Positions 11,127 through 32,189 of a stretch of DNA of 32,546 nt are shown here, one piece after another. Source of the stretch: Aneurinibacillus terranovensis DSM 18919. Lineage in GTDB: Bacteria > Bacillota > Bacilli > Aneurinibacillales > Aneurinibacillaceae. Every line of letters begins with the position of its first letter. Position 1 is the first letter of the stretch. A model generated the notes under the pieces. The model made no database searches. It saw only the letters and a list, made by a program, of their open reading frames with translations, and was not told the origin of the DNA. Where the stretch lies: assembly GCF_000430625.1 (NCBI RefSeq), contig NZ_AUMJ01000064.1:1-32546 (forward strand), read 5' to 3'. Made by a program: the position numbers and the translations under genes.

Positions 11127-11525
11127 ATGGTTCAACTGTCCATTGAAACGGAAGAGGACGTCATTATGGCGGCAACGCTTGGAAAAACAATTGCCTGTGA
11201 AATGGGATTTTCCCCTGTTGACCAAACAAAAATCGCCGTCGGCATATCAGAAATAACGCGTAATATTATTAATTATGCTTATCACGGGCGGATTTATTTT
11301 CACAAAGGGGAAGATTATATAGAAATAACGGTGCAGGATCGGGGACCGGGTATTGAAAACTTGGCGGAAGCTTTGAAGGATGGCGTTACAACAGGGAAGG
11401 GTCTCGGCCTTGGTCTATCCGGAACGAAACGGCTTATGGATGAATTTCACATTGAAACGAAGGTAGGGGTCGGTACAACAGTCCGGATTCGAAAATGGAT
11501 GGAAAGAGAAAAAAGAAACGAGTAA
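11127..11525 (+). CDS. RsbT-like anti-sigma regulatory serine kinase
   Basis: A 132-aa GHKL-fold ATPase/kinase; B. subtilis RsbT is 133 aa. The N-box is EITRNIINYA (about residues 47-56), the G1 box is DRGPGIENL (about 72-80) and the G2 box is GLGLGLSGTKRLMDEF (about 92-107). The GLGLGLSGTKRLMD pattern is closer to RsbT than to RsbW or SpoIIAB. RsbT phosphorylates STAS-domain partners in the stressosome and activates the PP2C phosphatase RsbU. No RsbR/RsbS partner is adjacent. ATG 11127 follows GGGGGAGAGG. A sigma-B-like promoter lies upstream, and a LOV-PP2C phosphatase elsewhere in the window is a possible but unproven partner. Confidence 0.85.
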   Translation: MVQLSIETEEDVIMAATLGKTIACEMGFSPVDQTKIAVGISEITRNIINYAYHGRIYFHKGEDYIEITVQDRGPGIENLAEALKDGVTTGKGLGLGLSGTKRLMDEFHIETKVGVGTTVRIRKWMEREKRNE

Positions 11526-29647: not shown

Positions 29648-30832
29648 CTACGCCGATTGAGGTTCTTTTCCAAGCCAGGCGACCACGATAGCGGCAATCG
29701 ACGTGACAAAGAAGAACATGGTAAAAATCGACGTAAAACCAACGTGCATTCCAATAAGCATACCCACCAGATATGGGGCAATAATCCCGGCAATTCGCCC
29801 GAATCCTGCTGCCCATCCGGTTCCGGTTGCCCGAAACTCGCTCGGATATTGCTCGGCCGTATAGGCGTATGTTGCTCCCCATGCGCCAAGGTTGAAGAAG
29901 GAAAGGAAGGCCCCTGTTAAAAGCAGCATAGCCACGCTGTTGGAAAATCCAAAGAGCAGAGAGAAGACGGCCGAGCACGCGGTAAACGTAACGAGCGTCT
30001 TCTTCTTCCCCCAGTTTTCTACCAGATGCGCGGCAGCAAAATACCCTGGAATTTGAATGACGGTCATAAAGAGAACATATTGAAAACTCTTAATTAACGT
30101 GAATCCTTTTAGTACCAAAATGGAGGGTATCCATAAAAACATGCCATAGTATGAGAAAACAGAAGTAAACCACAGCAACCATAGCACGAATGACGTGCGG
30201 CGATAGTCACGTGACCAGATCTGTTTGATCTTTTTTCCAATAGTCGGTTGATTTTCTATACGAAAAACAGGTGTTTCCGGTAAAGCGCGGCGCAGATAGA
30301 GTGCGTACAGAGCAGGGACGGCTCCTATACAAAGGCCGATGCGCCAGCCGAAATGAGGGATAATAAAATAAGAAATAACTGCAGCTACAAGCGCTCCAAC
30401 CGCGTAGAAACTCTCCAGCCACACGACCCATTTTGCTCGTTCTTTTTGTGGTGAAGCTTCTAATACGTAGGTAGTGACAACCGGCAGCTCACCCCCAAGG
30501 CCGAACCCTACAAAAAACCTTAGAACAAAAAACATTCCAAGTGTGGTAACTAGTGCATTTAATCCTGTTGCTATACTATAGATGAGCAGCGTGACCACGA
30601 ATAAATTCTTCCGTCCGTACCTATCCGCCCAGAGCCCTGCAATGGCGGCACCGAGCGCCATTCCGATAAAGTTGATCGTGCCGACAAGCCCCTGCTGCAC
30701 CGGTGTTAATCCCCATTCTCCTTTCAGGGCGGCGAGCACGAAAGACAGAATGCTTAAATCCATGGAGTCAAACAACAGTCCGATTCCCGATAAACCGAGA
30801 AGCTTGAGCGCGCCATCATGTCCTTTTTTCAT
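29648..30832 (-). CDS. niaP: MFS transporter, NiaP-like (niacin/aromatic acid uptake)
   Basis: A 394-aa major facilitator with 12 predicted membrane helices. MFS signature motifs: GLWADRYGRKNLFVV after helix 2 (about residues 66-80), RFFVGFGLGGELPVVTTYV around helix 4 (about 104-122), and FNLGAWGATYAYTAEQYPSE (about 318-337). From memory it resembles B. subtilis NiaP (YceI), for example GLGGELPV, YYGMFLW and SFFNLGAWG, so nicotinate or a related aromatic acid is the likely substrate; the exact substrate is unproven. ATG 30832 follows AGAGGGTG. It is divergent from the LOV phosphatase gene. Confidence 0.82.
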   Translation of the reverse strand: MKKGHDGALKLLGLSGIGLLFDSMDLSILSFVLAALKGEWGLTPVQQGLVGTINFIGMALGAAIAGLWADRYGRKNLFVVTLLIYSIATGLNALVTTLGMFFVLRFFVGFGLGGELPVVTTYVLEASPQKERAKWVVWLESFYAVGALVAAVISYFIIPHFGWRIGLCIGAVPALYALYLRRALPETPVFRIENQPTIGKKIKQIWSRDYRRTSFVLWLLWFTSVFSYYGMFLWIPSILVLKGFTLIKSFQYVLFMTVIQIPGYFAAAHLVENWGKKKTLVTFTACSAVFSLLFGFSNSVAMLLLTGAFLSFFNLGAWGATYAYTAEQYPSEFRATGTGWAAGFGRIAGIIAPYLVGMLIGMHVGFTSIFTMFFFVTSIAAIVVAWLGKEPQSA

Positions 30833-30927: not shown

Positions 30928-30962
30928 TTCACGCGGTTTTCTTGTAAAATATAATAGGGTAA
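30928..30962 (+). promoter_or_regulatory. Overlapping sigma-A and sigma-B-like promoters of the LOV phosphatase gene
   Basis: GTTTTC (30936-30941), 15 bases and GGGTAA (30957-30962) resemble a sigma-B promoter. Interleaved with it, TTCACG (30928-30933), 16 bases and TATAAT (30950-30955) form a good sigma-A promoter. The two would start transcription within a few bases of each other, about 20 bases before the GTG start. Dual control by housekeeping and stress sigma factors is inferred. Confidence 0.5.
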
Positions 30963-30989: not shown

Positions 30990-32189
30990 GTGGCTGAAAA
31001 AAACGAAAAGATACAAAACTCGGCACTGCAGGCCGCATACATACATGAGGAGTTAATCAAGGCGCTGGAAAAGAATTCAGAGCTGGTGGCTGCGATCTCA
31101 GATACAGCGACGGGTGTCACCATCTCCAATCCCCGCCTCCCGGATAATCCGGTTATTTATGCGAATCAGGGGTTTGTGACGTTAACTGGATACTCCCTGG
31201 ATGAGGTTCTGCACCGCAACTGCCGTTTTCTGCAGGGGGAGGGGACGGATAAGCAGACAATCAAAGAAATCGAAGCCGCGATTCAAAGCCATAAACCTAT
31301 TTCTGTTGAACTGCTTAACTATCGAAAAGATGGCACTCCCTTTTGGAACGAACTCTCGATTACACCGGTTTTCGATGAGGCAGGCGAAATTCTTTACTTC
31401 GTCGGATTGCAGCAGGATGTAACAAGGCGAAAACGAGCCGAACAGCAGCTACAGAACGAGATAACGTTTGCCAAGCGCATACAACAAAGTGTGCTGACTC
31501 CGCCCATCCACAGGGAACGGATTATGATTGACGCGGCGTATATTCCTTCCGAGCAGCTGGCGGGGGACATGTATGGCTGGTACGAAATTGATGAGAATCG
31601 ATATGGTATTCTTCTGTTGGATGTTGTTGGTCACGGAATTGGTGCTTCCCTGATAAGTATGTCGATTTGTTCCCTGCTGCACGGCCTGATTACCCGCCTT
31701 ATCGACCCGATAAAGGTGGCCAGGGAGTTAAACCGGCATATGCGCAATTTATACCGCGAAGAAGCACAAATCATTCCTAACTATTTTACGGCGCTTTACG
31801 CTGTTATCGACCTGAAAAAGAAAGAAATCGAATACGTGAATGCCGGACATCCGCCGGGGATTATTCTGACAGCAGGCGGGAGGGCAGAAAAGCTGGTAGA
31901 GGGGACGATCCCGCTCGGCCTGCTTTCGTCCATTAATATAAAAAAAGGCAGATTCACGTATCGCGGGATGGATGCGGTGGAGCCGTTGCGCCTGATTCTG
32001 TACACGGACGGACTCGTTGAAAAAGAAGGGAAATCCACCGATGAAACGATTGCAAAACTAATCGCTTTTCTGAGGGACCACAGGCATGCCGATAATGGAG
32101 CGCTTATTGAACGGGTCGTTGCAGAATTTAATCAACAATCCGATACATCGGACGATATTTGCCTGATTTCGGCTACCATCTATCCTTGA
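30990..32189 (+). CDS. LOV-domain PP2C-type serine phosphatase (RsbU/RsbP-like)
   Basis: A 399-aa protein. The N-terminal helix (1-35) leads into a LOV blue-light domain (about 35-145) with the flavin-binding motif NCRFLQG, whose Cys78 would form the photoadduct. Asn110 (LLNYRKDG), Asn120 (FWNEL) and Gln141 (VGLQQD) match the flavin-contacting residues of B. subtilis YtvA. A linker helix (about 146-165) joins a PP2C/SpoIIE phosphatase domain (about 170-399) with metal-binding Asp in GDMYG, LDVVGHGIGA, YTDGLVE and SDDICLI. RsbP/RsbU phosphatases dephosphorylate RsbV to free sigma-B, so light-controlled stress response is the likely role. The start is GTG 30990 behind GAGAGGAGAAGG. An IS element begins 10 bases after the stop. 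Confidence 0.93.
   Translation: MAEKNEKIQNSALQAAYIHEELIKALEKNSELVAAISDTATGVTISNPRLPDNPVIYANQGFVTLTGYSLDEVLHRNCRFLQGEGTDKQTIKEIEAAIQSHKPISVELLNYRKDGTPFWNELSITPVFDEAGEILYFVGLQQDVTRRKRAEQQLQNEITFAKRIQQSVLTPPIHRERIMIDAAYIPSEQLAGDMYGWYEIDENRYGILLLDVVGHGIGASLISMSICSLLHGLITRLIDPIKVARELNRHMRNLYREEAQIIPNYFTALYAVIDLKKKEIEYVNAGHPPGIILTAGGRAEKLVEGTIPLGLLSSINIKKGRFTYRGMDAVEPLRLILYTDGLVEKEGKSTDETIAKLIAFLRDHRHADNGALIERVVAEFNQQSDTSDDICLISATIYP

Follow-up and report, generated by a model that had tools for sequence, protein, structure and literature searches.

A LOV-PP2C phosphatase in the family of Aneurinibacillus terranovensis is associated with a partner-switching cassette beside a HemAT-type chemoreceptor

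Introduction

The joining of a LOV domain to a SpoIIE phosphatase domain is an architecture that has already been described, including in other phyla (review PMC4844311). Activation through a linker and dimer is described for RsbU and has been proposed for RsbP-type phosphatases (eLife 2025, PMC12143880). It is also known in outline that motility or chemotaxis loci can encode partner switches whose targets are unknown, and the HmpU/HmpV/HmpW switch of Nostoc sits in the hmp motility locus (PMC8256260). A 2026 review of aerotaxis makes no mention of STAS proteins or partner switching (PMC13401364).

Here we analyze a LOV-PP2C gene in a 32,546-nucleotide stretch of A. terranovensis DNA (the window), which is the entire contig C46. 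Its product shares with Bacillus subtilis RsbP (PAS-PP2C) and RsbU an N-terminal sensor, a helical linker, a PP2C/PPM domain and a presumed phosphorylated STAS substrate. With YtvA, the LOV-STAS protein of the stressosome and the closest solved LOV domain, it has in common a blue-light input to a partner switch, which for LOV-PP2C is a prediction. The obvious guess for the substrate of such a protein in the Bacillota is RsbV of the sigma-B pathway, but comparison of genomes parts the gene from sigma-B.

Results

The LOV-PP2C gene

The open reading frame and the LOV-phosphatase fusion claimed in an earlier note on this DNA are both real. The frame has exactly the claimed extent, strand and length (Table 1), and its GTG start is preceded by a Shine-Dalgarno-like sequence, GGAGAAGG, which makes a good ribosome-binding site. 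The evidence for the fusion is far beyond chance. The phosphatase domain matches PF07228 with an E value of 5e-39, the best PDB matches of the LOV domain are the YtvA structures 2mwg and 2pr5 (E 1e-36), and the AlphaFold2 model (pLDDT 85) consists of a LOV fold, one linker helix and a PP2C fold. Foldseek matches of the model are to LOV domains and to the RssB and Rv1364c phosphatases. The metal-ligand motifs of the PP2C domain are complete: AGD (191-193), LLLDVVGHG (208-216), YTDGL (338-342) and SDD (387-389).

Table 1. Features of the LOV-PP2C gene and its immediate surroundings (coordinates in the window)
Feature	Coordinates	Strand	Basis
MFS transporter, divergent; conserved left neighbour in the family (synteny marker)	29648..30832	-	ORF, Pfam, gene order in relatives
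LOV-PP2C gene, 399 aa, GTG start	30990..32189	+	ORF, Pfam and PDB matches
LOV domain core, residues 42-143	31113..31418	+	PF13426, YtvA match, AlphaFold2 secondary structure
His75, replacing Gly of GxNCRFLQ	31212..31214	+	LOV alignment
Photoactive Cys78 codon (NCRFLQ)	31221..31223	+	PDB match, LOV alignment
Glu95, replacing the second FMN-phosphate Arg (YtvA R79)	31272..31274	+	LOV alignment
Single-helix linker, residues 145-167	31422..31490	+	AlphaFold2; length equal in orthologues
PP2C/SpoIIE phosphatase domain, residues 201-396 by Pfam	31590..32177	+	PF07228, E 5e-39
IS200/IS605-like (TnpB) insertion-sequence end; starts directly behind the stop codon and is cut off by the contig end	32190..32546		Repeat copies, zinc-ribbon TnpB 3' end on the - strand, subterminal hairpin

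The flavin site and the light input

The earlier note credited the LOV domain with every key flavin residue, which is too strong, because two of the sites are substituted. In an alignment of 91 LOV and LOV-like rows, the photoactive Cys78 as well as R79, Q82, N110, N120 and Q141 are conserved, but the Gly of the photoactive motif is His75 and Glu95 occupies the site of the second FMN-phosphate Arg (R79 in YtvA numbering). Arg is found at this site in 75 of the 91 rows, against 4 rows with Lys and 2 with Glu, and in the family orthologues the residue is Arg, with Lys in one. Control of LOV-PP2C by blue light is plausible from the sequence. The seven other orthologues carry an extra N-terminal PAS domain (PAS-LOV-PP2C, ~490 aa) that is absent from the A. 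terranovensis copy, and the loss of this domain, together with Glu95 at the flavin-phosphate site, may have weakened the light input in this strain.

In the congener G009 the photoactive Cys of the LOV domain is replaced by Ser. In addition to this change in the LOV motif, the reading frame of the G009 orthologue (L137 4570-4596) is broken by 1 nt at the AGDMY motif; the break falls within a run of G and may be a sequencing error. The LOV domain is drifting in the host genus, as judged by E95 and H75 in A. terranovensis and by the Ser that replaces Cys in G009.

Lineage of the phosphatase domain

The protein had been called RsbP-like, and this holds for its domain order only. In a PP2C-domain tree that took in the host RsbU and left out B. 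subtilis RsbP, the phosphatase domain falls within a Bacilli clade of 29 rows (support 100/99) that includes REC-PP2C (RsbY-like) proteins, away from the host RsbU and away from the LOV-PP2C proteins of Bacteroidota, Planctomycetota and Acidobacteriota. A single LOV-PP2C clade, representing one origin, was rejected (p-AU 1.7e-36), and the PP2C domain of another LOV-PP2C, from the Bacilli family f30, scores weakly against the profile of the host clade. Because the one-clade tree is rejected and the f30 protein is separate, we conclude that the LOV-PP2C fusion arose more than once. A separate LOV-PP2C of another Bacilli family was noted at L227 2267-3319 and L228 2719-3951, with the photoactive Cys lost in one copy (NGRFLQ).

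A cassette conserved in gene order

An orthologue of LOV-PP2C is present in 8 of 11 genomes of the family, the host included; this is a small sample, in which the eight carriers come from two genera. In all seven of the other carriers the orthologue converges, across a gap of ~30-60 nt, on a cassette that encodes a HemAT-type protoglobin-MCP, an orphan protein of ~105 aa, an RsbW-like HATPase_c_2 protein of ~133 aa and an RsbV-like STAS protein of ~99 aa. To the left, each relative has one and the same MFS transporter in divergent orientation and beyond it SDR and CoA-transferase genes, an arrangement that the window shares. The phosphatase accompanies the cassette in every family genome that has it (8/8) and occurs in none of the family genomes without it (0/3).

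The cassette recurs in families f37 and f29 (genomes G263, G281 and G228), where the adjoining PP2C has a receiver-like or other N-terminal sensor region. In f37 it carries a REC-PP2C that is convergent exactly as in A. terranovensis. In f13, only the globin-MCP and the small gene were found together. The inputs of the cassette may be exchangeable, with PAS-LOV in the host family and a receiver domain in another.

The globin-MCP, which combines a protoglobin domain with an MCP signalling domain, matches HemAT (1or4, E 3e-20) and keeps the proximal His, and the host genome has 14 CheW-domain matches; an output to chemotaxis is therefore feasible. The HATPase conserves the N box and the G2 box. 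At the Asp position of the G1 box, family members have D, N or H (A. terranovensis has H), so that ATP binding by the kinase is uncertain. The STAS protein keeps the phosphorylatable Ser in a DSTG or DSSG motif and has a shared DINFET-type motif; its identity is 52-63% within the family (to the host copy or across genera), 31-45% to other families and 17-22% to RsbV. A PP2C phosphatase, a GHKL kinase and a Ser-bearing STAS protein are thus encoded together, as in a partner-switching module. No sigma-factor gene was recognised near the cassette, of which the constant neighbours are the small orphan protein and the globin-MCP.

For the ~105-aa protein, Pfam and NCBIfam gave no match above the cut-off. 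Profile comparison showed a weak likeness to two CotJB-like proteins (57% probability), and we did not rely on this assignment. Members of the family, with the core YNSLWSQLYRLEH, also occur as lone genes that have a CBS-domain-like protein, an MCP or a STAS gene as neighbour (L212-L220, L222).

The cassette in A. terranovensis

In A. terranovensis the cassette and LOV-PP2C lie on different contigs. The window ends 357 nt past the phosphatase gene in an IS-like end (Table 1) that has nine copies in the host genome, each of at least 300 nt and with 99-100% identity. The cassette occupies the extreme end of contig C29, where the gene order is SOD, AEC transporter, globin-MCP, small gene, HATPase and STAS. 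About 40 nt past the last of these genes the contig stops in a further IS-like end that is repeated, its terminal sequence recurring at contig ends. The order on C46 is LOV-PP2C, MFS, SDR and CoA transferases. Because both contigs break at repeated IS-like ends, and because the order from C29 to C46 is the unbroken order of the relatives, they very probably abut via an insertion sequence. The adjacency of cassette and LOV-PP2C in this genome is thus very probable, across an assembly break. No complete insertion-sequence copy that would join C29 and C46 was found, each copy retrieved from the host genome running off its contig.

In the small gene of A. terranovensis, an in-frame TGA takes the place of an invariant Trp codon. 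Together with the lost PAS domain, E95 and the Cys-to-Ser change of G009, this suggests relaxed constraint in the host genus. Taken further, these observations could mean that light sensing in A. terranovensis has been weakened or lost and that the switch is non-functional. The H75 substitution, the insertion sequence in the convergent gap and the frame break of G009 would fit such a decay, which is compatible with the family-level explanation that we prefer. We nevertheless regard it as rather doubtful: the LOV-PP2C frame is intact with all catalytic motifs, the STAS, HATPase and MCP genes are likewise intact, and the break in the G run of G009 is the one that may come from sequencing.

Relation to sigma-B

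The earlier note proposed that light is wired directly to a sigma-factor phosphatase and named sigB-rsbVW as the genes to look for. A complete rsbS-T-U-V-W-sigB-rsbX operon is indeed present, on contig C6, which makes sigma-B a possible target. In that case LOV-PP2C would dephosphorylate RsbV-P and, in parallel with RsbU, connect blue light to sigma-B through a single protein. Consistent with such a role, no second YtvA-like LOV protein was found in the host genome (the next-best PAS match has 33% identity), and the phosphatase domain shares its clade with REC-PP2C proteins resembling RsbY of B. cereus, a phosphatase with RsbV as its substrate. Upstream of the gene, at window positions 30936-30962, is a sigma-B-promoter-like GTTTTC-N15-GGGTAA that overlaps a TATAAT. 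As a conserved sigma-B promoter this site was rejected, since the match in A. terranovensis is not conserved in the relatives.

The distribution of genes across the family points elsewhere. Two complete genomes, G004 and G007, carry an intact LOV-PP2C and cassette but neither sigB (best match 37%, SigF-like) nor RsbW (best matches 25-27%, SpoIIAB-like); the loss of sigB in these two is probably one event. Conversely, G006 and G008 have sigB at 78-80% identity and neither LOV-PP2C nor the cassette. With sigB counted as present at 78% identity or more, six of the eight LOV-PP2C carriers have it, and the presence of LOV-PP2C does not track sigB/RsbVW across the family genomes. Outside the family, a search for RsbW in G263 and G281 gave SpoIIAB-like matches only. 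These patterns, and the dedicated STAS/HATPase pair next door, make RsbV an unlikely substrate. What stands of the earlier proposal is a LOV domain fused to a partner-switching phosphatase in a genome with a sigB operon; its sigma-B target is not supported, the gene being tied to the cassette by position and co-occurrence. Because LOV-PP2C adjoins its own switch by an oxygen chemoreceptor, and is retained or lost jointly with it, we conclude that it probably does not feed sigma-B. The earlier note had itself stated that it would be refuted if the phosphatase acted on some unrelated STAS protein, and genomics, rather than biochemistry, indicates this outcome, the cassette STAS having 17-22% identity to RsbV.

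Both substrates might also be served in sigB strains, so that the phosphatase would couple the general stress response with the switch at the oxygen receptor. The DSTG Ser is found in both STAS proteins, and most carriers have sigB as noted above. However, the two STAS proteins are only ~20% identical and partner-switch phosphatases are usually specific, and we consider such dual specificity quite improbable.

Other candidate STAS substrates in the host genome are RsbV, SpoIIAA and a STAS protein on contig C31. On the latter contig (L026 3459-6188) a multi-pass membrane protein of 629 aa, which has a PP2C domain at its C terminus, is encoded convergently with its own STAS/HATPase pair, and no sigma-factor gene was recognised near this switch. 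The window also contains, at 11127-11525, an orphan RsbT-like HATPase of 132 aa with 43% identity to the host RsbT; no RsbS or RsbU was recognised beside it.

Discussion

We propose that LOV-PP2C is the input of a dedicated, sigma-B-independent partner switch beside a HemAT-type chemoreceptor, with the phosphorylated cassette STAS as its most likely substrate (probability roughly 0.62). The pairing of the phosphatase with the cassette STAS is likely, and an output of the switch to chemotaxis is plausible, the link being suggested by gene neighbourhood. What the analysis shows directly is the domain anatomy, the catalytic motifs, the Ser of the STAS protein, the gene neighbourhood, the co-occurrence and the dissociation from sigB; we infer the direction of light control, the identity of the substrate and the output.

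In the proposed mechanism, blue light would form a flavin-Cys adduct in the LOV domain, the helix linker would rearrange in the dimer and the PP2C domain would be switched. The anatomy of the phosphatase and its one-helix linker agree with the activation through linker and dimer that is described for RsbU (PMC12143880). LOV-PP2C would then remove the phosphate from the Ser of the convergently encoded RsbV-like STAS. The unphosphorylated STAS would sequester the HATPase, and the partner of the HATPase, which may be the small protein or the chemoreceptor pathway, would change state. In this way light, together with the second PAS domain in the relatives, could adjust oxygen-guided behaviour.

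A second set of switch genes, unrelated to the cassette, is present in the sigB-free G004 and G007. There, MCP, HATPase, STAS and PAS-PP2C genes lie in a row with a CheA-like gene adjoining (L138 3971-9000, L139), which makes a link between switch and chemoreceptor more plausible in the host family. We tentatively raise the possibility that light resets aerotaxis, with the phosphatase, the kinase, the STAS protein and the new ~105-aa family regulating a HemAT-type receptor independently of a sigma factor and through exchangeable inputs.

If the output is the chemoreceptor, Ser phosphorylation and light would feed into chemotaxis by a route of which we found no prior description. The cassette also points to the uncharacterised ~105-aa family as a likely missing partner, and the sigB-free relatives offer a clean strain background for testing the switch. 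In a body of literature that lacks most subscription journals, we found no account of a LOV-PP2C accompanied by a HemAT-type cassette, and searches on Aneurinibacillus LOV proteins and on HemAT with SpoIIE returned nothing relevant.

The LOV-SpoIIE proteins of other phyla (L051-L069) have the same domain order and belong to different PP2C lineages; among the screened LOV-SpoIIE loci, one only has a HATPase neighbour, and its ORF is without the LOV Cys motif. Compared with RsbP, LOV-PP2C has a LOV domain instead of the RsbQ-linked PAS, with no RsbQ-like hydrolase adjoining. Its neighbours are a dedicated STAS/HATPase pair and a globin-MCP and, unlike RsbP and RsbU, it is not tied to sigB. It differs from YtvA in that its output is a phosphatase and not a STAS domain, that one flavin-phosphate Arg is replaced and that no link to a stressosome is shown. 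HmpU/V/W, SypE/SypA and SiaABC are likewise partner switches of which the output is no classical stress sigma factor, or is unknown; by their descriptions they are without a light domain or globin chemoreceptor, and they come from different organisms. HemAT, the aerotaxis transducer of B. subtilis, has in common with the cassette MCP a protoglobin joined to an MCP and the proximal His, and in contrast is described with a standard CheA route. B. cereus RsbY and other REC-PP2C proteins have a phosphatase domain of the same Bacilli clade, and it is a REC-PP2C that the same cassette carries in f37. In the LOV-PP2C orthologues, however, the sensor is PAS-LOV rather than a receiver, and the neighbour is the globin-MCP cassette rather than sigB.
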